The notes beneath the pieces are model-generated. The model saw nothing but the letters and a program-made list of their open reading frames with translations. It was not told the origin of the DNA and ran no database searches. Of a stretch of DNA of 64,000 nt, positions 13,360 to 64,000 are shown in pieces. How positions within the stretch are numbered: position 1 is the stretch's first letter; each line of letters starts with the position of its first letter. Made by a program: the position numbers and the translations under genes. Origin of the DNA: Actinophytocola xinjiangensis (GTDB lineage Bacteria; Actinomycetota; Actinomycetes; Mycobacteriales; Pseudonocardiaceae). The stretch lies in the NCBI RefSeq assembly GCF_001921215.1, contig NZ_MSIF01000006.1, forward strand, positions 186,001 to 250,000, written 5' to 3'.

Positions 13360-13573
13360 CCCGGCATGTCGCGCACGGGCTCACTGCCCGAGCAGCGGCC
13401 ACGAGACCGTTCCGGCTCCTTGGGGCGATGTTTGGACACGCCGACCGGTACTTCCCCTTGAACGTCGATACCCCTGGGCGACCGGTGACGCCGTGGTGAC
13501 GTCCTGGCCGCGGCACCGTGACGCGCGGCTGCGACCCTCGTGCCACCAGCACATCCGGGGTGATCAGCGCCGC

Positions 13574-22432: not shown

Positions 22433-22459
22433 CCCCGAGGCACGCACACACGTCGAAAC

Positions 22460-22486
22460 GCCGCGATGAGTACGACTCATCGCGGC
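22460..22486. terminator. Hairpin between cellulase and esterase genes
   Basis: GCCGCGATGAGT, three bases, then its exact reverse complement: a 12-base perfect stem beginning 28 bases after the cellulase stop. There is no T-run, as is usual for high-GC actinomycete terminators. It ends 15 bases before the next ATG, so it might also influence translation or act as an operator. Confidence 0.6.
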
Positions 22487-22492
22487 GGATAG

Positions 22493-23791
<1,299 letters not shown>

Positions 23792-23899
23792 CCGGACCGG
23801 CGGGCGCCCACCGTGGGCACCGCGGTCGGCTGCCGCACAGCGGCCCCGAAACCATTTCCGGTGCAACTTCCGGAATCGCGCCTCACGGCGGGACGAATG

Positions 23900-23910
23900 C
23901 GAAACTTTCG
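23900..23910. promoter_or_regulatory. Palindrome CGAAACTTTCG upstream of alpha-glucuronidase
   Basis: A perfect odd palindrome (CGAAA-C-TTTCG) 47 bases before the GH67 start. Its shape is like operators of LacI/ROK-type repressors of xylan genes in actinomycetes, as I recall them. A related pair of arms (ATCGAAACT...AGTTTCGAT) occurs downstream of the gene at 27482-27505. Regulator not in the window. Confidence 0.4.
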
Positions 23911-23956
23911 AGACAGGTCAACGCGCTTCGACATGGCCCTGGAGGAGGAATCCGTG

Positions 23957-26900
23957 ATGGGCACAGGTGCAGGCCCCCGGCAGTGCCGTGGAATTCCCGT
24001 GTTGTTCGTGGCGTTCCTGATGCTCGTCGGGTTGCTGCCGGGGACGTCAGCGGCCGCGGCCCCGGTGCCGGAGGACCCCTACGGTGACGGCTACGACGGC
24101 TCGAGCATGTGGATGCGGTACCCACGGGTCGACGATCCGGGTTTGCTTCGTCGGTACCGGGAGGCGATCAGCACGGTCGTCGTGGAGAACGCCGGCCGGA
24201 ACAAGGCGCACCGGCACACGCCGAACCTGACCATGGCGACGGGATCGGCCGAACGGCTGGTGGAGACCACTCTTGAGGCTGCCAGGAACGAGCTGACCAG
24301 GGGTCTTGGCGGGCTGCTGGACCGCGACGTCCCGGTGTGGTCCGACCGGGGCGGTCAGGTTCCCGACGGCGCCGTGGTCGTGGGGACCCGGGACAGCTCG
24401 ACGGTCGTGCGCCGGTACGTCTCCGCGCGCGATCTGGCGTCGGTCGGTGCCGAGGGCTACCTCATCCGTTCGGTCTCACGGGGCCGGCACGAGGTCACCG
24501 TCATCGCCGCCAACACCGACGTCGGAGCGCTGTACGGGACGTTCGCCTTCCTGCGGCACCTGCAGACACAGCGGCCCATCGCGAACCTGAACATCTCCGG
24601 CTCGCCCAAGGTCGAACACCGCCACCTGAACTACTGGGAGACCGAGCGCCTCTACGCCGGCAACGACGAGTTGGGGGACGGCGGGCTGGGCGGCGAGACC
24701 GGAGCGATCTTCAACTTCGCCGCCACCGGAGCCAGCGCCCACCTGAACCTGCCGGTCATCCTCGACCGCTACATCGTGGCGGCGCGGGCGTTGGCGTCCG
24801 TGGGGATCACCGGCATCACGATCAACAACGTCAACGCCAACCCCGTCTACCTCACGCGCGCCTACATCCAGCAGGAAGCCGCGCTCGCCGACGCCCTGCG
24901 CCCCTACGGCATCAGGTTGGCGGTGTCGGCCAACTACGCGGCACCGCTGGACCAGCGGTTCGCGCCGGACACCCTGACGAGGGAGCAGTTGGACCCGACG
25001 AGCACGGAGTTCCAGGGCTGGTGGAACCGGCGCGCCCGCGAACTGCAGGCGGCCATACCGGATTTCATCGGTTTCACCGTGAAGGCCAACTCCGAAGGGC
25101 AGCCGGGACCGCAGGATCACGGCAAGGACCACGGGGACGGCGCCAACGGCCTCGCGGCGGCGGTGGCACCCCTGGGAATGACGATCTTCTGGCGAACCTT
25201 CGTCTACAACCCTGATGTGGACACCGACCGGCTGAAGAGGGCGTATCTGGAGTTCGCACCGATCGACGACGAACCTCAGCCGGACGGAACGAGGGGCCGG
25301 TTCGCGGACAACGTCTTCCTCCAGACGAAGAACGGTCCTCTGGACTTCCAGGCGAGGGAGCCGATCCACCCGATGTTCGGCCGCATGGAGAACACCAACC
25401 AGGCGATCGAGCTGCAGATCACCCAGGAGTACACCGGCCAGGGCACGATGCTCACCTACCTGGGGCCCATGTGGGAGGAGGTGCTGACGACCGACACGTA
25501 TGCCACCGACAGGCAGGGGCGGTTGCTGGACAAGCGCCGGGTGGGCAACATCGTCGACGGTTCCGCACAGGGCCACCGGGACACCGCCGTCGTCGGTGTG
25601 GCCAACCTGGGCAACGCCGACAACCTGACCGGACACCATTTCTCCCAGGCCAACCTGTTCGCCTTCGGCCGCCTGGCGTGGGACTGGACGCTGGACGCGG
25701 AGGACATCGCGACGGACTGGGTCCGGATGACGTGGAACAACCGCGACGACGTGGTCGAGACCATCGTCGCGATGATGATGGGCTCGTGGGAGGCGCTGGT
25801 GAGCTACCAGACGCCGCTGGGCATCGGGCACCAGTTCGAGTTCAGCAACCCGGCCGACCACTACGGACCCGGGCCCTCGGTGTGGTTCGGCAACGACGAC
25901 TGGAGCCCGGTCCACTACAACAAGGCGGACAGCGTCGGGCTGGGGTATGACCGGTCACCCACCGGCAGCGACCTCGCCGCGCAGTACTTCCCCACCCTGG
26001 CGGCGAAGTACGGCGACATCGACACCGTTCCGGAGAACCTGATGATGTGGTTCCACCACGTGCCGTGGGACCACCGGATGCGCAGCGGCCGGATCTTCTG
26101 GGACGAGCTGGTCCACCGCTACCAGATGGGCGTGCAGTATGTGACCGGGATGCGGCACACGTGGGACGCGCTCGAACCGTACCTCGATGCCCGGCGCTTC
26201 GCCGAGGTCAGGGCGAAGCTCGCCAAGCACGAAGCCGACGCCGCCGACTGGCGGGACACCTGCGTGAACTACTGGCAGGAGTTCAGCGGCAGGCCCGTCC
26301 CGGTGGACGGCGGTCCGCTGTCGATCACGATCGACGTGGGCGGGCGCACGTTCGGCGGGTTCGACCTGTCCGCCGCGTCCTACCCGATTCCCGTGGCCGC
26401 GGGCGCTTCGCCACACGTCACGCACGTGTCCACGGCCGACACCGCGGCCCGGTACGAGATCATCTCGCAGCCGGCCGGTGTGCCGGGGCGGGCCGTCGTG
26501 CGAGTCACCAAGAACGACTTCTTCGGTCCGCTGGTGAAGGACCACGTCTTCACCATGGTGCGCGACACGACGCTCGAGAGCCTGACGGTGAACGGCTCGG
26601 CGCTCGCGTCGTTCCGGGCGGACGTCCTCGCGTACAACGCGGTGCTGCCGGCCGATGCGGGTTCGGTCCCGGCGGTGGCGGCGGTCGCGAGCGATCCCGC
26701 CGCCACGGTCGCCGTCGAGCAGGCGAGCACACCCACCGGGCAGGCGACGGTGACTGTCACGAACGGTGAGACGTCCACTGTGTACACCGTCCGGTTCCCC
26801 ACGGCGATCACCGGAAGCGACGAGTTCACCTCGTCCGAGTTGGGAGCCCAGTGGCACTGGGTGCGCGAGGACGCCGGCAGGTGGCGTCCCGGGGACGGCG

Positions 26901-27433
26901 CGCTGACCGTCACGTCCCAGAACGGCGACCTGCAGGGCAGCGTGAACACCGCGCGGAACATCGCACTGCAGGACGTGAACGGGGACTGGACGGCGGAATC
27001 GCGGGTCGTCTTCTCCAGGCCGCTGGCCACGGACAACGAGCAGGGTGGCGTTGTCGCCTACGCCGACGACGACAACTACGTGAAGCTGGCCTGGGAGATG
27101 GGTGACGCGAAGGCGCCGGTCAACAAGCTCCGCGTGGTACTGCTACGGGAGGAGAACGGCGTGGCGACCGCCATGCAGGTCACCGGCGCGGCGGCACAGC
27201 GCCTCGTCGGCGAAGGCGGCGCCATCTGGCTCAGGCTCACGAAGACAGGGAACACCTACAAGGCCTACTACTCGAACGACGGAACCGTCTACAAGTACAT
27301 GGGCACGACGACGCTGGCCACCGAACCGACGAGCGCGGGAATGCTGTCGTTCAATCGCGCCGGAACCTCGACCGACCTCGACGCCGCCTTCGACTACTTC
27401 CGAATCGATAGCCGGGGCGAGTACATCGGATAG
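23957..27433 (+). CDS. Secreted GH67 alpha-glucuronidase with C-terminal ConA-like module
   Basis: 1158 residues from ATG 23957 (GGAGGAGG nine bases upstream; the longer frame from 23813 is not needed). A signal peptide with the LPGTSAAAAP cleavage region precedes the GH67 enzyme: N-terminal domain with GYDGSSMWMRYPRVDDPGLL, catalytic barrel with HRHLNYWETERLYAGND, GFTVKANSEGQPGPQ (catalytic-site Glu region), MWFHHVPWDHRM, and the C-terminal helical domain to about 830. After about 850 come an unusual extension, first a cadherin-like beta domain (LESLTVNGSALASF), then a concanavalin-like module of the GH43 C-terminal type (DEFTSSELGAQWHWVRED). It releases (4-O-methyl)glucuronic acid from xylan fragments. 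The family is commonly intracellular at about 680-700 residues, so the secreted, extended form is notable. Confidence 0.92.
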   Translation: MGTGAGPRQCRGIPVLFVAFLMLVGLLPGTSAAAAPVPEDPYGDGYDGSSMWMRYPRVDDPGLLRRYREAISTVVVENAGRNKAHRHTPNLTMATGSAERLVETTLEAARNELTRGLGGLLDRDVPVWSDRGGQVPDGAVVVGTRDSSTVVRRYVSARDLASVGAEGYLIRSVSRGRHEVTVIAANTDVGALYGTFAFLRHLQTQRPIANLNISGSPKVEHRHLNYWETERLYAGNDELGDGGLGGETGAIFNFAATGASAHLNLPVILDRYIVAARALASVGITGITINNVNANPVYLTRAYIQQEAALADALRPYGIRLAVSANYAAPLDQRFAPDTLTREQLDPTSTEFQGWWNRRARELQAAIPDFIGFTVKANSEGQPGPQDHGKDHGDGANGLAAAVAPLGMTIFWRTFVYNPDVDTDRLKRAYLEFAPIDDEPQPDGTRGRFADNVFLQTKNGPLDFQAREPIHPMFGRMENTNQAIELQITQEYTGQGTMLTYLGPMWEEVLTTDTYATDRQGRLLDKRRVGNIVDGSAQGHRDTAVVGVANLGNADNLTGHHFSQANLFAFGRLAWDWTLDAEDIATDWVRMTWNNRDDVVETIVAMMMGSWEALVSYQTPLGIGHQFEFSNPADHYGPGPSVWFGNDDWSPVHYNKADSVGLGYDRSPTGSDLAAQYFPTLAAKYGDIDTVPENLMMWFHHVPWDHRMRSGRIFWDELVHRYQMGVQYVTGMRHTWDALEPYLDARRFAEVRAKLAKHEADAADWRDTCVNYWQEFSGRPVPVDGGPLSITIDVGGRTFGGFDLSAASYPIPVAAGASPHVTHVSTADTAARYEIISQPAGVPGRAVVRVTKNDFFGPLVKDHVFTMVRDTTLESLTVNGSALASFRADVLAYNAVLPADAGSVPAVAAVASDPAATVAVEQASTPTGQATVTVTNGETSTVYTVRFPTAITGSDEFTSSELGAQWHWVREDAGRWRPGDGALTVTSQNGDLQGSVNTARNIALQDVNGDWTAESRVVFSRPLATDNEQGGVVAYADDDNYVKLAWEMGDAKAPVNKLRVVLLREENGVATAMQVTGAAAQRLVGEGGAIWLRLTKTGNTYKAYYSNDGTVYKYMGTTTLATEPTSAGMLSFNRAGTSTDLDAAFDYFRIDSRGEYIG

Positions 27434-51584: not shown

Positions 51585-52025
51585 TCACGGTTCGAGGTCG
51601 GTCACTCCGTTGCCGCTCGCCAGGTCGAACGGTACGGAGACCTGGTCGTGCGTGATCAACCAGTTCCCGTCGATCTTGCGGAAACAGTAGGTGACCCGGA
51701 CCCACATACCGTTCGTGACCGTCCCGTTCTTCAGCGTTCCGCTGAGCCGGGCGAAGCAGTGCCCGAAAGCCACGTCATCACCCACAGTGAGCGTCAGGTC
51801 GCGAACTTCATAGTTCGTAACCTGGAAGAGCGTGAACGCGGTCGCCCAGTTCTTCGACTTCGCCGCCAGCCCCACGTGCTGTAGCGGCGGTTCGATGTCG
51901 AAGGACACGACGTCCGTCGCGTAAAGCTGTTTCAGGCTCTCGAGATCCTTGGTTCGGATTCCTTCGACGATCTTGTCGACCTGCTGCCTGATCCTGACGT
52001 CGTCCACCTCGTGTTGGGTTGGCAT
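51585..52025 (-). CDS. SnoaL-like/NTF2-fold protein
   Basis: 146 residues from ATG 52025. The pattern of an N-terminal helix pair (RIRQQVDKIVEGIRTKDLES), then LYATDVVSFDIEPPLQHVG, and the strands DVAFGHCFARLSG and WVRVTYCFRKIDGNWLITHD is that of the SnoaL/DUF4440 NTF2-like fold. These small proteins are cyclases, isomerases, or of unknown activity. It stands alone between the IclR gene and an eCIS-like cargo gene. Function unknown. Confidence 0.8.
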   Translation of the reverse strand: MPTQHEVDDVRIRQQVDKIVEGIRTKDLESLKQLYATDVVSFDIEPPLQHVGLAAKSKNWATAFTLFQVTNYEVRDLTLTVGDDVAFGHCFARLSGTLKNGTVTNGMWVRVTYCFRKIDGNWLITHDQVSVPFDLASGNGVTDLEP

Positions 52026-52364
52026 CGCTTCCCGTCCTCCAGTCGAACCTCGATCGTGGCTTCTCGCCCGTACGACGACACAGGCCCTCGGTATGTCACC
52101 CTCCGGGCTGACATTCCCAAGCGGCGAGGTACTCCTCGTGCGTCCAGTTCTCCGCCCGGGCCCGTTCGTCCGCCTGACGGCGACGCCGACCCTAGCCACG
52201 TCTGGCCTGTGGCGCGTCGATCAGGTGCCGCAGGCTCGACGTGCTGTGCTCGTGGGCCTCGCGAGGCAACGGATGTGCCCTCAGGTTTGCCCGGACACAC
52301 CTTCCCCAGCCGGGCGGGAATCCATCAGGCTGGTCCTGTCGGCGGGCCCGCGGAGGTGGGTGAC
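52026..52364. other. Divergent upstream region without gene
   Basis: 339 bases that contain the promoters of the SnoaL-like gene and the cargo-like gene. The cargo frame stays open through it, but the translated sequence is Arg/Pro-rich and not protein-like. No motif recognised. Confidence 0.4.
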
Positions 52365-54170
52365 GTGATTCATGGGCGGGCGAGTGGTTCCCAGGGGCGG
52401 CCGAGTGCGGTGGACCGCCACACCGCGCGACCCACCGCAGTGCCTCCGGCGCAGGCCAGGCTGCTCGCTCTCCAGCGCACGGCGGGCAACGCGGTGGTGG
52501 CGAGGATGGTCACGGACACCGCACCGGGGCGGGGCCTGGCGCAGCAGCGCTTCACGACCTTCGAGAACCGCCTGCGCCCGCTGCTCGCCTCGCGCGTTGC
52601 CGCGCGCGGGGACGTCGATCCGTTGGTCTCCGCCCTGATCGCGGACACCGCCCCCGCCGTCCGCGCCACCCTGCTCGACCGGGCCAGGAAGCTGATCGAC
52701 CAGTCCGAGGGCTACTCCGACGCGGCCGTCAACGCCGCACTCGCGGCGGTCGACCGGCACGATCCGGAGCGGTCGGCACGAGCCGTCCCGGGTGCGAAGT
52801 ACCTGTCGCCCAGTGTGGTGACGGACGAGGTGGGCGCGGGCCACATCAACCGCGACACGCAGGACACCGTGATCGTGGAGGGCGAGTACTACGTGCCCGT
52901 CTACGTCGCCGTGATGGACGAGGCTCTCGGATCCACCCCGAAATTCAAGGACGTCCGCCAGGACGAGCACGGGATCGTACAGATCCACACCGGAGGGACA
53001 CGATCCGACGATTCGGTGATGTGGTTCAGCTTCGGTCAGGCTCTCCGGCAGCTCAAGTGGATGGCGAAGTACCAGAAGCAGAAAGAGTCGGCCCAACCGC
53101 TCATTCGGTCCTTCCTGGCACCCCAGGTTGTCGTCAACAAGATCTCGGGCGGCATGATCACCGAGCGAGACGCCGGTGGAAGCACGGCGGACATCAACGT
53201 CGACAAGCGCTTCGCCCCCAACCAGATCGGCGTCCGGAACCCTCGCTCCCTGGAGCAACTGCGACAGAGCGCGCTTCCCGGATCATTACGCACGTACACC
53301 GATCTCATCGGACCTGCTCCGCGCGCCTGGGGCGACGCCCGTCCCGCGGACGAGCTCCGAGCGAGGGAAGGCGTTCCGATCGAGCGAATGGTCGACTACC
53401 CGATCTTCGCCGACGGCGGCGGCTTCACCGACTACAGGCACCTCACGAAGATCGCGACCGAGCTCGAAGCAATTCTGGACGCGCACGCGAGCACACCCAG
53501 GAACCAGAAGAACGACACCGTCGAGACGTTCTTCACCAGACATGCACCCGCGCGGTTCATCGCGATGGGCGAGGAGCCAGGAGCGCACGGCATCGCGGTG
53601 CACGAGTTCGTCCAGCAGGTCGTGATGCCCTGGCGCGACAGGGTGATCGGCGACCTGAGCATCACCGACAGCTACCAGCAACTCGTCCAGAGCGAGCTGC
53701 CGGAGCAACCCCAGACCGTCGAGGTCGCCGGGGAAAGGCAGGTGCTCAGGGGCGAGCGTCGATCCGAGGCGGCGGCACTCCACGAGGATCAGTGGCGGCA
53801 CATGTGGGCACGGGCGCACATGATCAGGGCACTCAAAGGTTTTCAGGTGTCCTCGGCGGAGTTCGCGGAAGCCGGGAAGGCCCCGGAAGGCCCGAGGGTT
53901 CTCGGTGAGGTCCAGAAGTTTCAGAAGACCGTCCTCGGCGACTATCGCCACCGCATCGGCGATCGGAACACCCTGATCAAGGAGAATCCTCGGTACGCCC
54001 GGATCGCGGGTGACCTCAGGACCAGATTGCTCGCCGTCCTGCCGAACCAGCCCGGAGGCTCACCCCTGCGTGCCGTCCTCACCGGGCTCGCTCGCGTCTC
54101 GTTGGCCGTCGGCGGAACCGCCCTGGCGAAGGTGCGCGACCGGATGCGGGCCACCCGACGCTGGAAGTGA
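52365..54170 (+). CDS. Second eCIS-cargo-like protein, effector domain unknown
   Basis: 601 residues from GTG 52365 (GGAGG seven bases upstream). The N-terminus has the tag ARLLALQRTAGNAVVARMV (about 27-45), the LQRxAGNAAV motif shared by cargo proteins of extracellular contractile injection systems and by the giant protein at 13574. The remainder (YYVPVYVAVMDEALG, VQIHTGGTRSDDSVMWFSFG, FADGGGFTDYRHLTKIATEL) is a globular domain I do not recognise, ending in a basic tail. No signal peptide, in keeping with injection rather than general secretion. An Imm1-type gene lies downstream on the other strand. Confidence 0.65.
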   Translation: MIHGRASGSQGRPSAVDRHTARPTAVPPAQARLLALQRTAGNAVVARMVTDTAPGRGLAQQRFTTFENRLRPLLASRVAARGDVDPLVSALIADTAPAVRATLLDRARKLIDQSEGYSDAAVNAALAAVDRHDPERSARAVPGAKYLSPSVVTDEVGAGHINRDTQDTVIVEGEYYVPVYVAVMDEALGSTPKFKDVRQDEHGIVQIHTGGTRSDDSVMWFSFGQALRQLKWMAKYQKQKESAQPLIRSFLAPQVVVNKISGGMITERDAGGSTADINVDKRFAPNQIGVRNPRSLEQLRQSALPGSLRTYTDLIGPAPRAWGDARPADELRAREGVPIERMVDYPIFADGGGFTDYRHLTKIATELEAILDAHASTPRNQKNDTVETFFTRHAPARFIAMGEEPGAHGIAVHEFVQQVVMPWRDRVIGDLSITDSYQQLVQSELPEQPQTVEVAGERQVLRGERRSEAAALHEDQWRHMWARAHMIRALKGFQVSSAEFAEAGKAPEGPRVLGEVQKFQKTVLGDYRHRIGDRNTLIKENPRYARIAGDLRTRLLAVLPNQPGGSPLRAVLTGLARVSLAVGGTALAKVRDRMRATRRWK

Positions 54171-54294: not shown

Positions 54295-54690
54295 CTAGTC
54301 CAAAATGAACCGGACGTTATCGGTTATCGGTGAGCCAGTTTCTACAAATCGCTCTACACAAACCTTGGCCACCCCCGAAGAAATCAACCATTCTGAAGGA
54401 ACTTCACTCCAGGACCCGAAATGATCGAAAACGAGCCCCTCGGGACCCGAGAATTCGCCGACAGAGTGATATGAGCTTCCCGACACATCAGTCCATCCCA
54501 AATGCACGCGCACACCATCCGTCGAATACGACAGTGATTCACCACTTGCGACCACAACATCTACCGTCGGGCATCCTCTTGCTGATCGCAAACCCTTTGC
54601 GAGTTCGATCGCATGAAACACATCGCCGACGACTTCACCCACGATATGGATTTCACTTTCGGAATATGGGTTATAGTAGCTGATATTCAT
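54295..54690 (-). CDS. Imm1-family immunity protein
   Basis: 131 residues starting MNISYYNPYSESEIHIVGEV. The later segments TDVSGSSYHSVGEFSG, HFGSWSEVPSEWLISSGVAK and VERFVETGSPITDNVRF match the Imm1 family, which protects against polymorphic toxins, often deaminases. Base composition differs strongly from the neighbours: sampled 60-base lines give about 45-55% G+C against about 70% around them, a sign of recent acquisition. The gene converges on the cargo-like gene at 52365; whether that product is its target is not shown. Confidence 0.8.
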   Translation of the reverse strand: MNISYYNPYSESEIHIVGEVVGDVFHAIELAKGLRSARGCPTVDVVVASGESLSYSTDGVRVHLGWTDVSGSSYHSVGEFSGPEGLVFDHFGSWSEVPSEWLISSGVAKVCVERFVETGSPITDNVRFILD

Positions 54691-54754: not shown

Positions 54755-55900
54755 TCATAGCTGCCCGACGCGCCAGTCCTGGCCGTCGGTGGGGCCGAGG
54801 AGCCGGCCCAGCTCGGTGCGGAGCGCGCGCAGTGCGTCGTCACCGATGGTGGTGAGGTGGTGGGTTGCGACCCCGGCCGGTGGGCGCAGCAACGTCCACA
54901 GTGGGTTGGCCACCCCGCCGCGCAGCAGTTTGGTGCGCAGGCCGCCGATGCCGAGGTGCAGGCCGCGCAGGCCGTGCTCGATGGCGTACTTCAGTGGTTC
55001 GTAGACCAGAACATGGAAGTAGTCCGAGCCATCGGCGATCGCCGCGTAGTCGAGACCGACCGCGCGGACATACAGCCGCTCGCCCCAGACGCAGCCCAGT
55101 GACACCGCGACCGGCTCACCGCCGGGGTCGACGGACACGAACGTCGGCATGGGTACTCCGGTCTCGGCCATCCACCCGCACCGGGCCAGGAAGCGTTCCA
55201 GCGCCGGGATCTCCGCTGGTTCGCCATGGTGCCGCTGGACCTGCATGATCAGCGACGCGGTGCGTGGCGGCGCCTCCCGAACGTCCACCGTCTCCAGCTT
55301 CCCAGCGACGGCCCGCAGATCCCGGCGCACGACCGAGCGCCGGGAGCCGGGGAGCGCGGCCAGCCAGGCGTCGAACCCGTTCGCCGGCACCGGCACGACG
55401 ACCTCGACATCGGCGAACACCGGCTGCCAGGTCGGCAGACCGCCGAGCAGCAGGGCGGCCTCACCGGCGTCAAGATAGCTGATCGCGGCGGGGTGGTCGG
55501 CGGTCGCCCGGTCGATCGTCCTGGCCAACTCGCCCACCGCCGCGTCCCGGGCGGCACCGTGGAGTCGCGGATCGACCAGCAGCCCGTTGCCGTACCCCGC
55601 GATCGAACCCACCAGGTACTGCGGCCGCCACAGAGCCGGATCCGTGCCCGTGCCCTCCGCGAACCTTGCCAGGTCGTACCGGCTGTTCGCGGGCGCGGCC
55701 GCGAACGCGTACACCGGCGCCGCCGCCGCCCCGTCGCGGGTGCTGACCAGCCGACCGCGTCCGAGCCCGGCACGTTCCAGACCGGCCAGCCACGGCCAGC
55801 TCACGTAGAAGCTGGTGCCCGCCGCCATCTCGTTCCACCGAGTGCGATCCAGCTCCGCCGTCGGCATACCGGCGCGCGTGGCCGAGGTGCCGTCACTCAC
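54755..55900 (-). CDS. FemAB/BioF2-like GNAT-fold acyltransferase
   Basis: 381 residues from GTG 55900, overlapping the MFS stop (GTGA). RRSVVRRDLRAV, AVSLGCVWGERLYVRAVGLD and VLVYEPLKYAIEHGLRGLHL match the acetyltransferase-like/FemAB-like proteins with duplicated GNAT folds that transfer amino acids (from aminoacyl-tRNA) or acyl groups to an amine. Last gene of the cluster. A second homologue is at 58935. With a synthetase-like gene in the same operon, aminoacyl transfer in biosynthesis is plausible, but this is inference. Confidence 0.75.
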   Translation of the reverse strand: MSDGTSATRAGMPTAELDRTRWNEMAAGTSFYVSWPWLAGLERAGLGRGRLVSTRDGAAAAPVYAFAAAPANSRYDLARFAEGTGTDPALWRPQYLVGSIAGYGNGLLVDPRLHGAARDAAVGELARTIDRATADHPAAISYLDAGEAALLLGGLPTWQPVFADVEVVVPVPANGFDAWLAALPGSRRSVVRRDLRAVAGKLETVDVREAPPRTASLIMQVQRHHGEPAEIPALERFLARCGWMAETGVPMPTFVSVDPGGEPVAVSLGCVWGERLYVRAVGLDYAAIADGSDYFHVLVYEPLKYAIEHGLRGLHLGIGGLRTKLLRGGVANPLWTLLRPPAGVATHHLTTIGDDALRALRTELGRLLGPTDGQDWRVGQL

Positions 55901-57126
55901 GACGCCACCCGCGTGTCGAACGCCCGCCGCACGGCGACGCTCACCGGCACCAGCATCAGGTACCAGACAGCGACCCCGACGAGGGCGACCCCGCTCGCGT
56001 CGTGATCGAAAGCGGTCGACAACGCCAGGACGGCGACGCCGGAGAGTACCGCGGCGACGATCGAGGCGCTGGTCTGGATTCTCGGCAGCGACTCAGCCGG
56101 GATCGCGGTCTGGGCCAGCACCTGGGTCGAGACGTTCGCACCGATGACGCTGCCGCCCATCGCGCCGACCGCCACGATCAGCAGGACGATGTCGGTGGTG
56201 AACGCCAAGCCGACCAAGCCGACCGCGATCACCACCAGCATCGCGGGTATCAGAGCGGTTCTGGCGTAACGGCTGATCAGGGCGCCGGCCAGGATGGCGA
56301 CCACCGGATAGGCCATCTCGGTCGCGGCGTACTCGCGTAGTCCCTCGTGCAGTCGACTGTAGATGATCAGCGGTATCGCCACGTTCAGCACGTTCATCGC
56401 GATGAACCCGGAGGGCATCAGCAGGACGAGCCCGAACTCCCGCAACCTAGGCCGGACCCGGGCCGCCGCCGGTTCCGCCGCAGCCGCTGCCGGTTGCGTG
56501 TCGGCCCGGTTCGTGTCCGTTCTGGACAACAACGCCATGAGCAGGACGCCCTGCACCAGGAACGTGCCGGCGTCCAGCAGGAACAGCGTCCAGGCCGGTG
56601 CGCTGCCCTGAATGACGAGCCCGAAGGCACCCAGCACCGCACCCGACTGTGTGCTGGTCTGCAGCAGCGCGTTGCCCCGGCCGAGTTTCCCCGTGCTGAG
56701 CAGCTTGGGCAGTGCGCTCAGCACAGCGATCCACAGCACCTGGGTGAGCAGCCCCAGTGCCGCGGACGAGGCGAACAGGATGATCAACGGCCCTTGCGTC
56801 CCGGCGGTGATCGCCATCATCCCCGCGATCACCGCCTGGAGGAACGCGGTGCCGGCGGTCACCCCACGCAGCGACCAGGTGCCCAGCCGCGACGTGATCA
56901 GCGGCAGGAACACCACCACCGGCAGGAAGTTGAGCACCACGGCCGCCCCGACCGGCAGGGGCGACTCCGTCCGCTCGTACAGGTAGGTGAGCAACGCCAG
57001 CATGTTGAGCACCGCACCGGCCGACGACACCCCCATACCCACGCCCAACGCGATCCACAGCCGCCGGTCGGAGTCAGCCTCGCGGCGGACCGGGCTACTC
57101 GCCGTAGAGCTGCTTGAGGCGTTCAC
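55897..57126 (-). CDS. MFS transporter, probable exporter
   Basis: 409 residues with about twelve hydrophobic segments, first at RLWIALGVGMGVSSAGAVLN. The overall pattern fits an MFS drug/proton antiporter: VFLPLITSRLGTWSLRGVT after helix 2 and an Ala/Pro-rich central loop (about 195-220). The start overlaps the end of the preceding gene by 32 bases. Within a biosynthetic operon it most likely exports the product. Confidence 0.9.
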   Translation of the reverse strand: MNASSSSTASSPVRREADSDRRLWIALGVGMGVSSAGAVLNMLALLTYLYERTESPLPVGAAVVLNFLPVVVFLPLITSRLGTWSLRGVTAGTAFLQAVIAGMMAITAGTQGPLIILFASSAALGLLTQVLWIAVLSALPKLLSTGKLGRGNALLQTSTQSGAVLGAFGLVIQGSAPAWTLFLLDAGTFLVQGVLLMALLSRTDTNRADTQPAAAAAEPAAARVRPRLREFGLVLLMPSGFIAMNVLNVAIPLIIYSRLHEGLREYAATEMAYPVVAILAGALISRYARTALIPAMLVVIAVGLVGLAFTTDIVLLIVAVGAMGGSVIGANVSTQVLAQTAIPAESLPRIQTSASIVAAVLSGVAVLALSTAFDHDASGVALVGVAVWYLMLVPVSVAVRRAFDTRVAS

Positions 57127-57607
57127 TGAGTTGTTCCTCCATCAGTGATTCCGGCACCGCGGGTTCGGTAAACAGCGAGTCCTGGTCGGGATCGGGTTGT
57201 CCGACCAAGTGCTCGAAGGTCACGACAAGCCGGGCACGGTCGCAGTCCGGCACGACACCCATCGCGGGCACGACCGTGCCGGCCACCACGAGCAGTGGGG
57301 GCAGCGGGTCCGACCCCGTACCGGCCAGGACGACACACACCGCGGCTGCCGATGCCTCGCCCTCCAACAGCTCGCGCAGGTCATCAGCGGTGGACGTGTC
57401 CAGGGAGATCGTGGCCACCCGCAGTCGAGTGCCGTCCAGGTCGACCTCGCGGCACACCTGGCCGATCTCGTCGGCCACGTCGGTCCCGAACCCGGTCAGC
57501 GCCGCGACCGTGCCCTGGTCGAACAAGCCCCCGAACACCGGGTGCTCGGCACCCGCGGCGGCGATGTCCTTCAACTGATCCGTCATCACGACATAGACAC
57601 TGATCAC
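57095..57607 (-). CDS. Unknown 170-residue protein of the biosynthetic operon
   Basis: 170 residues, no signal or membrane segment. MISVYVVMTDQLKDIAAAG, VADEIGQVCREVDLDGTRLR and LLVVAGTVVPAMGV are visible; the C-terminus is acidic (SLMEEQLSERLKQLYGE). I do not recognise a family. GTG overlaps the synthetase-like stop (GTGA) and its 3' end runs 32 bases into the MFS gene. Conserved position in the operon suggests a product-specific role. Confidence 0.6.
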   Translation of the reverse strand: MISVYVVMTDQLKDIAAAGAEHPVFGGLFDQGTVAALTGFGTDVADEIGQVCREVDLDGTRLRVATISLDTSTADDLRELLEGEASAAAVCVVLAGTGSDPLPPLLVVAGTVVPAMGVVPDCDRARLVVTFEHLVGQPDPDQDSLFTEPAVPESLMEEQLSERLKQLYGE

Positions 57608-58938
57608 GTAGAACTGTCCTCTCCCGTCCGCGGCGCCCCTGGCCGCGCCTTGGCGATCTCCTGGCCGAACAGGACGCCCGCACCGATCTCGTCATCGCCG
57701 CGCAACGTCATGAGAAGTCGTTCCATGCCGATCGCCCCGCCACCCATCGGTGGCATGCCGATTCGCGCACTGCCCATCAGCGACTCGTTGAGCACGGTCT
57801 CGCCGAGTCCACAGTCGAGCCGGTGCCGGCGCCGGACCGTGTAGCGTTCGCGTAGTTCCCGCTCCACGGTCAGGTTCTCGTACACATGCGCCACCTCCAT
57901 GCCGCCCGGCAGGTACAGCTCCGCGCGCAGGGCGTAGTTGGGGTTCGCCGGATCCAGCCGGTAGCTGTAGGCCAGATCCGCCGGGAAATGAGTGACCCAC
58001 GTTGGTTCATCCAGCGCTGGCAACACATGGTCGTCGAAGAGCGTGTCCAGCCAGTTGCGCCGCCAGGTCGTCGCCTGACCGGACAGCTCGACCGTCAGGC
58101 CGCACGACCGGATCCGTGCGGCGAGCCCGGCGGCGGTCGCGCAGTCCGGCGCGTCCAGGTCGATACCGGTCACCTGCTTGGTCAGATCCGCGTATCGCGC
58201 GCGAGCACACGGCCTGTCCGGGTTGATCACGGTCGGTCGGGGCCCGAACGCCGAGTGTCGCCGGACCAGATGACGGATCAGATCGTCCGCGAGTTCACGA
58301 GCTTCCTGGAAGTCCATGAACCTGCGGTAGAACTCGAGCGACTGGAACTCCGTGAGGTGCGTGCTGTCGTCGGCGTCGTCGCGCACGTTGGTGGAGATCT
58401 CGTACACCGCCTCGATGCCGGCGGTGAGATACCTCTTCAGGTACTCCTCGGGATCGGTTCGTAAGTAGAAACTCGTGCCCCGCATCGGCTGGGTGACGGC
58501 CTGGTGGAAGAAGCTGATCTCCGGCGCGGCCTGCAGCATCGGGGTCTTGACCTCGACGAAGTCACGACCGTCGAGGAACAGCCGAATCTCGCGGAACATC
58601 GCGGCGTTGTGCACAATGGCCTCAAGGCACCCCGGCCAGATGATCGCCTCGGCCTCGGGCAACTCGGTCGCGGTGGTTGGCGGCTGTTCCGGCGCGCGCA
58701 GCACTTTGGTCCGCTGCGCGACCAGCAGGTCTCCCGTCCAATCCCCGGTGACCTCGACCCAGGCGTGATCCGGCGCGTTGGCTCCGGTGACCGGGATGAC
58801 CCGCGGGCCGTCGGCGAGCAGCGTCTGGTCGACTCCGCCGCACAGCCGGCCGGTCACGGTCACTTCGTGCAGCCGCTGGTCGATGGCGGCGATCTCGTCG
58901 ACGGTCATGACGATTACAGCGGACGCGTCCAGCGTCAT
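57604..58938 (-). CDS. Class II aminoacyl-tRNA synthetase-like protein (LysRS-type)
   Basis: 444 residues. An N-terminal OB-like region (about 22-85: EVTVTGRLCGGV to AQRTKVLRAP) is followed by a class II core: motif 1 FLDGRDFVEVKTPML (121-135), YLRTDPEEYLKRYLTAGIEA, motif 2 VYEISTNVRDDADDSTHLTE (178-197) and motif 3 GGGAIGMERLL near 400. The layout is LysRS/EpmA-like. Motif 2 has VRDD where FRNE is usual, and motif 3 has MER for xDR, so activity is probably specialised. Possibilities: making an aminoacyl adenylate for biosynthesis, or a resistant synthetase for self-protection. ATG overlaps the FemAB-like stop. Confidence 0.8.
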   Translation of the reverse strand: MTLDASAVIVMTVDEIAAIDQRLHEVTVTGRLCGGVDQTLLADGPRVIPVTGANAPDHAWVEVTGDWTGDLLVAQRTKVLRAPEQPPTTATELPEAEAIIWPGCLEAIVHNAAMFREIRLFLDGRDFVEVKTPMLQAAPEISFFHQAVTQPMRGTSFYLRTDPEEYLKRYLTAGIEAVYEISTNVRDDADDSTHLTEFQSLEFYRRFMDFQEARELADDLIRHLVRRHSAFGPRPTVINPDRPCARARYADLTKQVTGIDLDAPDCATAAGLAARIRSCGLTVELSGQATTWRRNWLDTLFDDHVLPALDEPTWVTHFPADLAYSYRLDPANPNYALRAELYLPGGMEVAHVYENLTVERELRERYTVRRRHRLDCGLGETVLNESLMGSARIGMPPMGGGAIGMERLLMTLRGDDEIGAGVLFGQEIAKARPGAPRTGEDSST

Positions 58939-60152
58939 CGGTCCCCCCGGGTGTTGCGGACTGACATTTCCACCAACTCGCGATCCTTGTCGTTCTGGGA
59001 AAGGATTCCCGGCATCGGTGGAGCCAGATGCCCACGGTGCCAGCGGATTGCCAGGTCGCGGAAATGGGTGAGCTTGCGAGTACTCAGATCCTTGGCATGC
59101 GCGAGCAGCGCCGCGCCGAACGGCGAGGCGGGGTCGGCCGACAATGCACCGAGCGCATAGCGCAGCGTGGCGCCACGGAACAACTTCGCCTGGTGGGCGC
59201 CGCCGCCGTAGTCGACGCGGCGGTGGCGCCCGGTGACGGCCAGCGCCACCACCTCGTCGTACACCAGTGGCAGGTAGTCGACCTGGGGGTGGTCGCTACC
59301 GAAGCACTTGGGGAACAGGGTGTCTCCCCAGACGAGTACGGCGAGCGCACTGCGCAGCGTGGCGCCCTCGGACACGGTGAGGAGCAGCCGGGCGACACCG
59401 CCGGTGCCGGTCGCGAGCGTCCGGTACAGGCCCAGCGGCGGCGACGAGTCACCGTGCCGGCGCGCGTGTTCGGCGAACAGGCGCACCACCTGGTCGGTTT
59501 CCCGGTCGTCACAGGGCTCGTCGACCGGCCGGACCCGAACGGTGTAGCCGTTCCGTTGCCACTGCGCGTACCGCTGCCGGATCGACCGCCTCGAACCGCC
59601 GAGTTCCGCGTAGTACTCCGCGGCGGACGCCCATTCGACGTCCAGCACGCACTGCGCGCCGAGCACGAGCGGCTCCGCGCCCGCAGACCGCAACGCGCGC
59701 AGCCATTCGTCGTCCTCGCCGTCGAACAGGTAGTGGGACATGACCAGTCCAGCGCCCTGATGTCGTGCATGCCGGATCAGTTCGACCGCCAGCCCGTCGA
59801 GGGCGGCCCCCTCCGGGGCGAACGCGCCGCCACGGTAGCCGTAGGGGCTGACGGTGGTCGCGACCGGTCCCCACCGCTCCCCCACCGTGCCGATCCGTCC
59901 GGGCCACGAGGAGCCGAGGAACGCCCGCTCCAGGTGACCGGTCAGGATCTGCCGCGGGCTGTGGTAGTAGTGGTCCGGGTCGGCGTCCGTCCAGACCGGA
60001 ACACCCGCGCCGTCGGCGCTGATCAGGTGCGCGCGATCGGCGAACCCGGCCGCCGAGTACCACTCCCGGGTCTGGAACGGGGTGCGTGCGAACCGACCCC
60101 AGCCGGTCTTGTCGGTGAACAGTTCCGGCAGGGCCACGCCGGCCTCGGTCAT
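58935..60152 (-). CDS. Second FemAB/BioF2-like GNAT-fold acyltransferase
   Basis: 405 residues from ATG 60152 (overlapping the phosphoesterase stop, ATGA); upstream extension of the frame is shadow sequence. TPFQTREWYSAAGF, GGSRRSIRQRYAQWQRNGYT, VLVWGDTLFPKCFGSDHP and DYGGGAHQAKLFRG are the landmarks of the BioF2/FemAB-like family; the last block parallels the GIGGLRTKLLRG segment of the 54755 protein. The protein probably transfers an aminoacyl or acyl group to the small-molecule scaffold. No membrane segment. Confidence 0.75.
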   Translation of the reverse strand: MTEAGVALPELFTDKTGWGRFARTPFQTREWYSAAGFADRAHLISADGAGVPVWTDADPDHYYHSPRQILTGHLERAFLGSSWPGRIGTVGERWGPVATTVSPYGYRGGAFAPEGAALDGLAVELIRHARHQGAGLVMSHYLFDGEDDEWLRALRSAGAEPLVLGAQCVLDVEWASAAEYYAELGGSRRSIRQRYAQWQRNGYTVRVRPVDEPCDDRETDQVVRLFAEHARRHGDSSPPLGLYRTLATGTGGVARLLLTVSEGATLRSALAVLVWGDTLFPKCFGSDHPQVDYLPLVYDEVVALAVTGRHRRVDYGGGAHQAKLFRGATLRYALGALSADPASPFGAALLAHAKDLSTRKLTHFRDLAIRWHRGHLAPPMPGILSQNDKDRELVEMSVRNTRGDR

Positions 60153-61543
60153 GCGGGCACCTCGTCGTGCCGCATGAGGTTCTGGCCGCTCAGGCCCGGA
60201 TCCTCGGCCAGTCCGAGGAGATCGAGAAGCGTCGGTGTCACATCCAGAATGGACGCTCGTCGTCGGACACCGGGACGCACCTGCCCGCCCCGCAGGATGT
60301 AGAGGCCGTCCCGCGCGTGATTGGCCTCGTCCAGTCCGGTGTCGTTGGTCGAGACCCAGGTGCTGTGGTGCCCGACGCTGCCGATGCTGCGCCACTGCTC
60401 GGAGTCGAAGAAGACGAGCAGATCCGGGGGAATGCCGCGAACACGACGGTACAGGTCCGCCGGGGTGCACACCCGGTTGTGCAGCACCCGGCCGTCGCCG
60501 AGGGCCACCGTGGTCAGCAGGTCGTCGATCTGGGCTCCGAGCTTGGCGATCTCGGCGGGCTCCACGATGCCGTTCGGCTCGCGCCCCTTGACGTTGAAGA
60601 ACACCCTGGCGTAGTAACCGCCCTCCGCCCACGCCCGGGTGGCCGTCCAGTCCACCATGGTCGGTTCCAGCGGTCCCGGCTTCGACGGCTCCTCGCGCAG
60701 GACCAGCAGACCCGCCTCGCGCAGCAGCTCGTTGACACAGAGGCCGCCGTGCATCGCCTTGGCCCCGTGGTCGGACGCGACCAGCACCGAGGTGTCCGAA
60801 CCCACCAGGTCCAGCAGCGAACCGACCTCGGTGTCCAGATACCGGTAGTAGTCCCGGATGGCCGAACCGTGCGGTGAGGACGGATCGTGTCGCGGGTGCG
60901 TGGGGTCGTGGTGGCTCCAGAAGGAGTGGTGCATCCGGTCGGCGCCGATCTCGTGCACCATCGCGAAATCCCAGTCCCGCGACCCGAGCAGGTGGCGCAT
61001 GAGCCGGAACCGCTTGCCGGTCATCCGGTGCGCCGTCTCGCGCACGCTCTCCAGCGGGGTGTTGCGGTACTCCGGGACGTCGAACTCGTACTCCCCCACC
61101 ACCCGCTCGACCTCCGCCGCCAACTCCGGTGGCCAGGCGTAGCCGTTCGCGTCCAACGCGCCCTCGAACCCGCAGACCAGCGCACCCTCGATGTGGGGCG
61201 GTGGCGAGGTCTGTGGCACACCGAGCACAATGGACGGACGACCGGCGGCCGTCATCCGGTCCCACAACCGTGGATAGCGCACGGCGGTGGACGTGGCTCG
61301 AATCAGATCGCCGTACCGGAAGCTGCGCCGGTTACGGAACCCGTACACCCCGAGCTCTCCCGGGTCTCGACCGGTCAGCATGCTGGTCCAGGCCGGAACG
61401 GTGATCGGCGGCAGGGTGCTCTCCAGCGCTCCGCTCATCCCGGACGCGGCCAGCCCGGCCAGCCGAGGCATCAGGTCGGCCCCTTCGGGCTCGAGAAGTT
61501 CGGCGCCGAGGCAGTCCAGGCCGATCAGCAGCACCCGGCTCAT
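60149..61543 (-). CDS. Alkaline-phosphatase-superfamily phosphoesterase (type I phosphodiesterase-like)
   Basis: 464 residues, no signal peptide. MSRVLLIGLDCLGAELLEPE carries the first metal-site Asp; TVPAWTSMLTG holds the Thr nucleophile region; HEIGADRMHHSFW and SVLVASDHGAKAMHGG supply further metal-binding His/Asp. The type I phosphodiesterase/nucleotide pyrophosphatase group hydrolyses phosphate mono- or diesters. It is paralogous to the gene at 62589. In this operon it may act on a phosphorylated or nucleotidyl intermediate. ATG overlaps the next gene's partner by ATGA at both ends. Confidence 0.85.
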   Translation of the reverse strand: MSRVLLIGLDCLGAELLEPEGADLMPRLAGLAASGMSGALESTLPPITVPAWTSMLTGRDPGELGVYGFRNRRSFRYGDLIRATSTAVRYPRLWDRMTAAGRPSIVLGVPQTSPPPHIEGALVCGFEGALDANGYAWPPELAAEVERVVGEYEFDVPEYRNTPLESVRETAHRMTGKRFRLMRHLLGSRDWDFAMVHEIGADRMHHSFWSHHDPTHPRHDPSSPHGSAIRDYYRYLDTEVGSLLDLVGSDTSVLVASDHGAKAMHGGLCVNELLREAGLLVLREEPSKPGPLEPTMVDWTATRAWAEGGYYARVFFNVKGREPNGIVEPAEIAKLGAQIDDLLTTVALGDGRVLHNRVCTPADLYRRVRGIPPDLLVFFDSEQWRSIGSVGHHSTWVSTNDTGLDEANHARDGLYILRGGQVRPGVRRRASILDVTPTLLDLLGLAEDPGLSGQNLMRHDEVPA

Positions 61544-62592
61544 CGGCCCGACCGATCACCAGCCGGAGCGGACACCTTCTCCACCAGTAGGTACGAGTAA
61601 CTGCCCTGATGGAAGTTCCGCACCGGACGGTACCCGGCCTGCTCGGTGAGCGCGATGAGCTCGTCCCAGCTCAGCGGGAACAGGTCGTCCTCGAGCATGG
61701 AGAAGTAGAACTCCCGCATGGCCTCGTCCGGAAAACCGCTGCGCGCGAACGTGTGGCCGAGGCAGAGCAGCCCGCCGGGCCGCAGCGCCGTCCACAGTTC
61801 GGCCAGCCGTGCCTGCTTGTCCCGGATGAAGTGGAAGGATCCGTTGAACAGCACGCCGTCGATCGACTCCGGGGCCAGCTCAGGCAGCGGCAGGTTGATG
61901 TCGTGCACCTCGGCCCGCAGTTCGGTGCCGGCCGGATAGTCCAGTTCCCTGGTCATCTCGACGAAGTCGGCGGACTTGTCCAGCGCCACGATCGAACACC
62001 GGCCGCCGCACGCCTCCGCGATCCGCTGCGCGCCGTATCCCGGTCCACAGGCGAGATCCAGGAAACGGTTGCCCCTGGCGACCAGCTCCTCGACGCACAG
62101 TCCGCGGCCGAACTCGTAGAGCGGACTGGTCATGGTCAGCCGCCATTCCTCCGCCAGGCTCTTGTCGAACCGGGCGAACTGGTGCGGCTTGCGGAGAAAC
62201 TCCAGATCGCGGCCGAGGAACTCGATGTTCGTGGTGCGGATCGCCTCCGCGTAGTCGTCCCCGTACCAACCCTCGATGTGCTGGATCTGCGGCACGTACC
62301 GACCGTCGTCGTCCAGCGATCGACCGGCCCGCGCGCCGTTCGTCTGGTAACGCGGCCCGCCGTCGACCGTGACCTCCCGCAGGAGCTCCTGACTGGCCAG
62401 TAATCGCAGCAGACAGACGAGCTGGTCCCGCTTCTCCGGCAGGAACTCCATGTGTCCGATCATGTCGTCCACACCGCGCGGCTCGGCCAGGTAGGTCAGC
62501 AGCCCGGAACTGTCCGCGACCTCGCGAACGGCGTGGCTGAAGATGCGCGACGACTCGATCGCCGCGTCGTACATGCCCTGTTCTGTCCTCAT
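61540..62592 (-). CDS. SAM-dependent methyltransferase with N-terminal helical domain
   Basis: 350 residues. An N-terminal helical/winged-helix part (1-110: FSHAVREVADSSGLLTYLAE, KRDQLVCLLRLLASQELLRE) resembles the dimerisation domain of small-molecule O-methyltransferases. The catalytic Rossmann part has motif I NRFLDLACGPGYGAQRIAEA (about 175-194), a VALDKSADFVEMTREL segment and LRPGGLLCLGHTF. Likely methylates an oxygen, nitrogen or carbon on the cluster's product. Coupled to its neighbours by 4-base overlaps. Confidence 0.88.
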   Translation of the reverse strand: MRTEQGMYDAAIESSRIFSHAVREVADSSGLLTYLAEPRGVDDMIGHMEFLPEKRDQLVCLLRLLASQELLREVTVDGGPRYQTNGARAGRSLDDDGRYVPQIQHIEGWYGDDYAEAIRTTNIEFLGRDLEFLRKPHQFARFDKSLAEEWRLTMTSPLYEFGRGLCVEELVARGNRFLDLACGPGYGAQRIAEACGGRCSIVALDKSADFVEMTRELDYPAGTELRAEVHDINLPLPELAPESIDGVLFNGSFHFIRDKQARLAELWTALRPGGLLCLGHTFARSGFPDEAMREFYFSMLEDDLFPLSWDELIALTEQAGYRPVRNFHQGSYSYLLVEKVSAPAGDRSGR

Positions 62593-64000
62593 CGTTGCTC
62601 CCTCAGCACGCCCAGTGCGTGCAGGTTGAGTGGCCGGCCATCAGCGTCACGTGGGGCGCGTACACCGAGCAGTTGCGCGAAGGTCGGCGCCAGGTCGACC
62701 ATCGCGACGGGAAGCTGGCCGACCGAGCCGGGTTCGAGACTAGGGTGGCGCAGCAGCGCGAGCGTGCGGGCGGATGGTGATGCCGGATGGAACGAGCCGT
62801 GGCCGCTGGTGAGTTCGACTCCCGGTTCCGTCAGCACGAAGTACGGCTCGCGTCCCGCTCGCAGCCGGGTCGCGGGCTCGTATCCGCGCGCCATGCTGAA
62901 GAACAGGTCGGGAGCGTGCTCACCGCTCTGGCCGTAGGTGGCCATCTCGTCGGCGTCGAGCACACCGGTGACCACCGGCTGCCCGGTCCTCGGATCCACG
63001 AGGCCACGAAGCCCGGCGGTGATCTCCTCGACCAGTCCGCCCACCTCGTCCTCGTGGACGATGCCTCCCGACCACCAGCTCTCCCGGTTGAGCACCACGA
63101 GGCCGGGAAAGAGCGCGTAGGCCCGAGACTTGGACCAGTCGATGTGCACCGAATCGTCGTGCTCGTGGGCGACCAGCCAACCCTGTTCCCGGAAGAAGTC
63201 GTTGACGTGGAACATGGTGTGCACCAGGTCGTGGCCGTGGTCGCTGACCAACGCCACCCCGTCGTCGGCCTCGACGCAGTCCAGCACCGTTCCGACCAGC
63301 CGGTCCATCAGCCGGTAGGTCTCCCGCAGGAACCCGAGATAGCGATCCCGATCCCGGTCGGCCAGTGGGTGGCTGTCGTCCAGGCAGGACCCGGCGATGT
63401 GGTGGGCGTACTCGACGACGTGCCAGTGCACGAAGAACCCGTCCCAGGGGTTGCCGGCGAGGTGTCGGATCGTCCGTTCGAGCCACGCCGTGTGCGCGTC
63501 GTACACCTCGAGTTGGGTCTCGATGTCGAGAAGGCCGTTCATGTAGTCGAAGGTGCCGGTCCACTCACACGGCGGACCCGCGGCATCGACGAGTTCGGAA
63601 GCCAGTTCGGACGGCGTCGTGAAGCCGTCGACGCGGTGCCCTTCTGTACGGTAGATCCGCATGATCCGATTTGTCAGGTCGAGCTCCAACAGCTTGACCC
63701 GGAACATGAACGCGCCCTGGTGGCCTTCCTCGCGGATCCAGTCGGACCACTGCCCGACGGCCAGGTCGGCGACCGCCCCGTCGTCGGACTTCCGTCTGCG
63801 GATCAGCAACCGTGCGCCGTCCGAGGACGGATAGGCCAAGGCATGCAACAGTTCCCGACGCTGTTGCCCACTCGGTTGCACCGGCAGCGTCGACTCGAAC
63901 TCCGGGATACAGCCGGCCGGCAGGTCGGACCAGCCGAGCGGTTTTCGCGCGTGCACGGTGATGTGGCCGTTCGCGCCGTTGGAGTCGATACGGTAATGCT
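62589..64000 (-). CDS. Alkaline-phosphatase-superfamily phosphoesterase, C-terminal part
   Basis: The frame is open to the window edge (HYRIDSNGANGHITVHARKP continues upstream of the GTG at 63956), so the N-terminus and the first metal/nucleophile motif lie outside. The visible 470 residues contain FFVHWHVVEYAHHIAG, GVALVSDHGHDLVHTMFHVN and VELTSGHGSFHPAS, the metal-binding His/Asp of the family. The second phosphoesterase in this operon. Substrate unknown. Its stop overlaps the methyltransferase ATG (ATGA). Confidence 0.85.
   Translation of the reverse strand, partial: HYRIDSNGANGHITVHARKPLGWSDLPAGCIPEFESTLPVQPSGQQRRELLHALAYPSSDGARLLIRRRKSDDGAVADLAVGQWSDWIREEGHQGAFMFRVKLLELDLTNRIMRIYRTEGHRVDGFTTPSELASELVDAAGPPCEWTGTFDYMNGLLDIETQLEVYDAHTAWLERTIRHLAGNPWDGFFVHWHVVEYAHHIAGSCLDDSHPLADRDRDRYLGFLRETYRLMDRLVGTVLDCVEADDGVALVSDHGHDLVHTMFHVNDFFREQGWLVAHEHDDSVHIDWSKSRAYALFPGLVVLNRESWWSGGIVHEDEVGGLVEEITAGLRGLVDPRTGQPVVTGVLDADEMATYGQSGEHAPDLFFSMARGYEPATRLRAGREPYFVLTEPGVELTSGHGSFHPASPSARTLALLRHPSLEPGSVGQLPVAMVDLAPTFAQLLGVRAPRDADGRPLNLHALGVLREQR

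Follow-up and report, generated by a model that had tools for sequence, protein, structure and literature searches.

A divergent class II synthetase of the LysRS/EpmA family in an eight-gene operon of Actinophytocola xinjiangensis: a candidate aminoacylation pathway without classical core enzymes

What could be made by an operon that places a lysyl-tRNA synthetase (LysRS)-like enzyme next to two putative aminoacyl transferases and two phosphodiesterase-like enzymes? The question is raised by a stretch of 64,000 nucleotides of Actinophytocola xinjiangensis DNA (the window; G000:C56:186001-250000 in a 9.5-Mb genome of 72 contigs), in which positions 54755-64000 are filled by eight minus-strand open reading frames (ORFs), numbered here from gene 1 at the window end down to gene 8. 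We propose, with a probability of roughly 55%, that these genes constitute a self-contained specialised-metabolite pathway located beside a divergent regulator of the SARP (Streptomyces antibiotic regulatory protein)/AfsR type, in which aminoacylation driven by the synthetase would be combined with processing and export. The notable part of the operon is the synthetase itself, the rare and apparently re-tooled product of gene 5.

All seven gene junctions overlap, just as the initial annotation of this DNA had claimed: by the ORF coordinates, six of them do so by 4 bp (62592/62589, 61543/61540, 60152/60149, 58938/58935, 57607/57604 and 55900/55897) and the junction of genes 6 and 7 by 32 bp (57126/57095), the overlap of gene 4 requiring the ATG at 60152 and not the longer mechanical ORF. 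Judged by this layout, the eight genes probably form one transcription unit. The same annotation had suggested looking past position 64000, which completed gene 1 and added the regulator but brought no other biosynthetic gene into the operon. The window ends inside gene 1, whose start in the genome is either a GTG at 64508, for a protein of 639 aa, or an ATG at 64535 (648 aa). The regulator ORF, at 64570-67533 (L006:570-3533) outside the window, contains BTAD, NB-ARC and TPR domains (Pfam), and its best NCBIfam model is that of the SARP regulator AfsR, matched with 562 bits against that model's cut-off of 1430. Because this divergent ORF is the next gene beyond gene 1, the operon is complete with eight genes, which the regulator may control. 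The overlap of seven junctions out of seven, together with the adjacent BTAD-type regulator, is the first argument for a dedicated pathway.

Which amino acid would such a pathway use? Gene 5 (P0005; 57604-58938, 444 aa) encodes a divergent class II synthetase of the LysRS/EpmA family (tRNA-synt_2, PF00152, E 1.1e-34). In an alignment of P0005 with 36 rows (4 EpmA and 32 LysRS-type), Arg186 and Arg407, the motif 2 and motif 3 arginines of the adenosine triphosphate (ATP) site, are common to all rows, and so are E164, H194, E202, Y204 and E348. The position of Escherichia coli LysRS Glu428, in contrast, is Glu in 36/36 rows and Asn355 in P0005; according to PMC8251883, Glu428 of LysRS binds lysine and Arg480 binds the γ-phosphate of ATP. 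The motif 2 Glu is replaced by Asp188 (35 rows have Glu and one has Asp), A402 corresponds to the Ala of all four EpmA rows where the other 32 have Gly, and the segment past motif 1 also deviates from the nearly invariant LysRS sequence. We conclude that gene 5 probably forms adenylates and that its amino acid is probably not ordinary lysine. The LysRS-like assignment made initially is thus correct for the fold, whereas lysine specificity has probably not been kept.

The N-terminal part of P0005 is also peculiar. The motif 1 Glu is preceded by 128 residues. Three EpmA rows have 34-36 residues there, the E. coli EpmA row has 63 (27 extra residues included) and the 32 other rows have 186-460. 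Pfam gives no match to the LysRS-type N-terminal anticodon domain in P0005 up to E 1, and comparison with LysRS N-terminal parts by hhalign gives a probability of 0.8%, with a single query sequence, such that a very divergent domain could still be present. In the phylogenetic tree the terminal branch of P0005 is 4.84 long, and the protein falls outside both the EpmA clade (100/99, 4 rows) and the LysRS rows, a place that is unsure given the branch length. Its best NCBIfam match, genX (TIGR00462), scores 166.8 bits and stays under the cut-off of 286.9, and the LysX score is 103.3 against a cut-off of 742.

The host genome contains no match to P0005 at E up to 1e-5 other than P0005 itself, and no class II LysRS besides gene 5 was found in it. 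The host LysRS, encoded at G000:C40:292-1332 (L049:274-1941), is a class I enzyme: it matches PF01921 with E 5.9e-100, a model that is also positive in 13 of 14 control genomes, and scores 296.6 bits with the lysS_arch equivalog model, over its cut-off of 147.55. Since the host enzyme is of class I, gene 5 is not a copy of it, and its origin as a duplicate of the host LysRS is ruled out. That gene 5 keeps both invariant arginines, has Asn in place of the lysine-binding Glu and does not derive from the host enzyme is the second argument for our proposal.

The operon was initially described as encoding two FemAB-like transferases, an assignment that is firm for gene 8 and weak for gene 4. The product of gene 8 (P0008; 54755-55900, 381 aa) matches Acetyltransf_6 (E 4.1e-7) and FemAB_like (E 6.8e-7; 29.2 against a cut-off of 27), both over cut-off. 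Gene 4 (P0004; 58935-60152, 405 aa) encodes a probable MprF/Fem-type transferase of the GCN5-related N-acetyltransferase (GNAT) fold, judged by a match below cut-off to LPG_synthase_C (PF09924, E 9.1e-4), the family used elsewhere to find VlmA. The two proteins resemble each other (25% identity, E 5e-7 in a single pairwise comparison), both are free of predicted membrane segments, and a Lys-x-x-Arg-Gly motif, with its lysine at K323 in P0004 and K324 in P0008, is invariant in all four proteins of an alignment with two outside relatives. With E values up to 0.1 allowed, three of these four proteins match all of Acetyltransf_6, FemAB_like and LPG_synthase_C, and gene 4 matches LPG_synthase_C only. 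In section 7 of PMC12945691, FemX is thought to use Lys305 and DhpH-C Lys329. By their sequences gene 8 and, weakly, gene 4 appear to belong to GNAT families that include aminoacyl-tRNA-dependent ligases, and there are established cases, described in PMC2922099 and PMC9379638, of an MprF/Fem-type ligase that is supplied by its own class II synthetase paralogue; both circumstances argue for an aminoacylation pathway.

The remaining products were assigned, like the rest, by Pfam and NCBIfam scans. Gene 1 (P0001; 62589-64000 and on to 64508 outside the window, 639 aa) and gene 3 (P0003; 60149-61543, 464 aa) encode type I phosphodiesterase-like enzymes of the alkaline phosphatase superfamily (Phosphodiest, PF01663, over cut-off in both; E 2.3e-29 and 1.5e-38, respectively). 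In a six-protein alignment with four relatives, both keep the metal-binding Asp/His set and the Thr nucleophile, save one Asp-to-Glu replacement in gene 1; we presume the roles of these positions from nucleotide pyrophosphatase/phosphodiesterase (NPP) enzymes. Gene 2 (P0002; 61540-62592, 350 aa) encodes an S-adenosylmethionine (SAM)-dependent methyltransferase (Methyltransf_25, E 4.3e-13) that also has a Dimerisation-domain match below cut-off, gene 7 (P0007; 55897-57126, 409 aa) a major facilitator superfamily (MFS) transporter (MFS_1, E 1.7e-12) with ten hydrophobic segments, and gene 6 (P0006; 57095-57607, 170 aa) an orphan protein of no convincing family, whose best Pfam match is no better than E 0.28. 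Most of the initially proposed gene set therefore holds, gene 4 being the weak member, and so does the statement that core enzymes are lacking: the domain lists of the eight products contain no core domain of polyketide synthases, non-ribosomal peptide synthetases (NRPS), terpene pathways or ribosomally synthesized and post-translationally modified peptide pathways. A PDB sequence search gave no match for P0003, P0004 or P0008, and single-sequence AlphaFold2 models of P0006 and P0004 (mean predicted local distance difference test scores of 41.0 and 30.9) were too poor for use.

How might these proteins work together? In the pathway that we propose, gene 5 would adenylate an amino acid, probably other than ordinary lysine, and would hand the aminoacyl group either to tRNA or, as EpmA does, straight to an acceptor. 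The products of genes 4 and/or 8 would attach this group to a small acceptor drawn from primary metabolism, which might be phosphorylated or linked to a nucleotide. The methyltransferase of gene 2 would cap a group, the enzymes of genes 1 and 3 would take off phosphate or nucleotide, and the MFS protein would export the product, possibly in this order. A farther-reaching version, which we offer tentatively, is that the class II LysRS family has a third branch, represented by gene 5 and devoted to a non-lysine and perhaps non-proteinogenic amino acid, and that together with the two Fem-type ligases gene 5 provides a complete NRPS-free route to a new class of aminoacylated, phosphate-derived metabolite.

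Five proteins of the operon were sought in genome samples that overlap and were drawn from larger taxonomic groups. P0004 was found in 1 of 297 genomes of the family at 1e-10 (itself) and in 2 of 396 of the phylum at 1e-8, where a 27% relative in G648 joins the protein itself. P0005 was found in 1 of 394 genomes of the class at 1e-40 and 1 of 6 of the genus at 1e-35 (itself each time); a scan of genome contigs with six exact octapeptides, a type of scan that finds close relatives only, gave 26 stretches and one 26% relative. P0001 was found in 1 of 246 genomes of the class at 1e-50 (again itself). P0003 occurs in 2 of 246 genomes of the class at 1e-25 and in 3 of 121 genomes of the genus of G542 at 1e-40, G542 included. 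P0006 gave itself and one partial weak match (E 7.1e-4) among 246 genomes of the class and no match in plasmids. Among the best-ranked matches in open-licence PubMed Central papers there was no cluster with this gene set.

Relatives of genes 1, 3, 4 and 8 sit in other biosynthetic-looking loci, which also argues for our proposal. The gene 4 relative in G648 adjoins two PALP enzymes, an MFS transporter, a TP_methylase and a Ham1-like protein, and a gene 8 relative (36.6% identity across 44% of the protein) is located on a Streptomyces plasmid together with radical SAM, AMP-binding, acyl carrier protein, ketosynthase and ATP-grasp genes. Gene 1 relatives (30-34%) on Mesorhizobium plasmids occur with BTAD regulator, aminotransferase, transketolase and radical SAM genes. 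Gene 3 relatives (44-46%) are found in three genomes of the same class (G542:C25, G1124:C1 and G1103:C10; L056-L058 and L065-L068) in a common locus with further such phosphoesterases; in G542, Pfam identifies there DegT aminotransferase, carrier protein, AMP-binding, radical SAM, B12 radical SAM, luciferase-like and PhyH proteins. We know of no product of this conserved locus, and blastp at 1e-3 found no match to the synthetase or the transferases in the three loci. The idea that the operon makes a small molecule, voiced in the initial annotation, is thus partly supported, by the layout, the regulator and these relatives.

Several observations weigh against the proposed pathway. The Asp188 of motif 2 makes adenylation by gene 5 less than certain. 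The sole Pfam match of gene 4 scores 18.8 and stays under the cut-off of 27.5, and the motif lysine of the transferases is not tied to FemX Lys305, a PDB search with the four-protein profile having given no match. Many GNAT proteins use acyl-coenzyme A, so the aminoacyl-tRNA donor is only putative for genes 4 and 8. The loci surrounding the operon (L005 and L006) gave no tRNA gene and no Rfam family at its gathering score, hence no sign there of a dedicated tRNA, T-box or riboswitch. Haloarchaeal plasmids, too, commonly encode weaker relatives of genes 1 and 3, so that membership of the phosphodiesterase family does not in itself point to biosynthesis. None of the other genomes searched turned out to have the eight-gene set, and the co-occurrence on which the initial annotation would have relied accordingly gave neither support nor a fair refutation. 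Both the product of the operon and its expression are purely predicted.

It is unlikely, in our judgement, that the operon merely decorates or releases a scaffold built by genes elsewhere in the genome. Such a split pathway would agree with the finding that neither Pfam nor NCBIfam reveals a scaffold-forming enzyme in the operon. By Pfam, the operon is flanked on one side by genes for FMN (flavin mononucleotide) oxidoreductases, a solute-binding protein and an IclR regulator, and on the other by genes for a methyltransferase, a flavin monooxygenase (FMO)-like flavoprotein and a TPR protein, with no obvious partner among them, the rest of the genome not having been searched for scaffold genes; the operon, however, is a compact and complete unit that brings its own transporter and has a regulator next to it. 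The FMO-like flavoprotein (L006:6690-8576) lies about 2 kb past the far end of the regulator with other genes between and is not counted in the operon.

Modification of the cell envelope is quite improbable, too. Here the synthetase and an MprF-like transferase would attach an amino acid to a membrane lipid or to a precursor of the wall, the phosphodiesterase-like enzymes would act on headgroups of phospholipids or polymers, and the MFS protein would serve as a flippase. LPG_synthase_C as the one family matched by gene 4 and the FemAB-like match of gene 8 suit this scenario, as do the actinomycete proteins described in PMC2922099, in which an MprF-like part is joined to a paralogous LysRS to lysylate lipids, but the soluble appearance of both transferases, which have no predicted membrane segment, the altered lysine-binding position and the failure to find the gene set in other genomes searched do not, and a SARP-type regulator with a separate MFS gene is better suited to specialised metabolism. 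It is more improbable still that gene 5 is an inhibitor-insensitive LysRS that guards the host from the product of the operon or from another lysyl-adenylate mimic. Spare cluster synthetases are known as resistance genes, for example AcmD, which also charges tRNA (section 4 of PMC12945691), and a class II enzyme would differ in drug sensitivity from the class I host LysRS; the Asn at a position that is Glu in every aligned row, the lack of a detectable LysRS-type N-domain and the very long branch nevertheless make gene 5 unlike an enzyme that needs to charge tRNA(Lys).

Two further signals were considered and set aside. Codon use is too weak to indicate recent transfer, the GC content at third codon positions being 0.83-0.90 in the operon; 27 mechanically called genes around it have a median of 0.917 and values down to 0.844. 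TTA codons are too few: one each in gene 2, gene 5 and the regulator, compared with 4 among the 15,312 codons of the flanks. A small low-GC ORF immediately downstream (54295-54690, GC 0.50), with an insignificant match to an Imm1 immunity protein (E 0.14), is not counted in the operon. A 719-aa ORF at 52011-54170, between the operon and a SnoaL-like ORF, and a 1619-aa ORF at 13493-18352 have no Pfam match at 1e-5, and positions 19547-27433 contain plant-polysaccharide genes for a glycoside hydrolase family 9 (GH9) cellulase with CBM2 and a GH67 enzyme.

If the proposed aminoacylation pathway is right, a LysRS-type catalytic core would have been re-tooled, with its lysine anchor replaced, into a dedicated activating enzyme of a small NRPS-free pathway. 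The operon would then be a compact system in which to study tRNA- or adenylate-dependent acylation and would help genome mining to detect clusters that lack the classical core enzymes.

Parts of this scheme have counterparts in known systems. TunH of the tunicaminyluracil clusters, which we take to belong to the superfamily of genes 1 and 3, suggests by its annotation that hydrolases of this type have a place in nucleoside pathways. In PMC6965331 it is annotated as a nucleotide pyrophosphatase. The ascamycin proteins AcmD and AcmF and the GNAT-fold PacB, DhpH-C, DhpK and Orf11 are examples of synthetase-like or GNAT-fold enzymes that acylate small molecules with the help of aminoacyl-tRNA (PMC12945691, sections 4 and 7); AcmF, however, resembles alanyl-tRNA synthetase and lacks most ATP-binding residues, whereas gene 5 keeps the ATP-site arginines, and the acm genes considered here do not match the set of this operon. 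LysX, an MprF-like protein fused to a LysRS paralogue, likewise pairs a LysRS-type enzyme with an MprF-type GNAT domain (PMC2922099), but here the proteins are separate and soluble, the lysine pocket is altered, and there are two transferases and further enzymes. With EpmA/GenX, the elongation factor P β-lysine ligase, gene 5 has its best NCBIfam score and Ala402 in common; it differs by Asn355 in place of the Glu of EpmA, by about 90 extra N-terminal residues, by its gene context, by its score below the family cut-off and by its place outside the EpmA clade.

The closest parallel is offered by the valanimycin pair VlmL/VlmA, a dedicated seryl-tRNA synthetase (SerRS) and an MprF/Fem-type GNAT transferase. 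Both clusters combine a class II synthetase paralogue with a GNAT ligase, putative in this operon, for an aminoacyl step without NRPS (PMC2922099 and PMC9379638 for valanimycin). An azoxy-type cluster was rejected, the operon having no N-hydroxylase or azoxy-type genes: none of the eight products matches a flavin monooxygenase of the VlmH/VlmR type in Pfam or NCBIfam. Unlike the valanimycin pair, the operon has a synthetase of the LysRS/EpmA type with an altered pocket and not a SerRS, as well as two transferases, two phosphodiesterase-like enzymes and an orphan protein. The best reading, by this analogy, is that the aminoacylation pathway works like the VlmL/VlmA pair with a synthetase whose specificity is probably not for lysine, and it would extend the VlmL/VlmA logic to another synthetase family.

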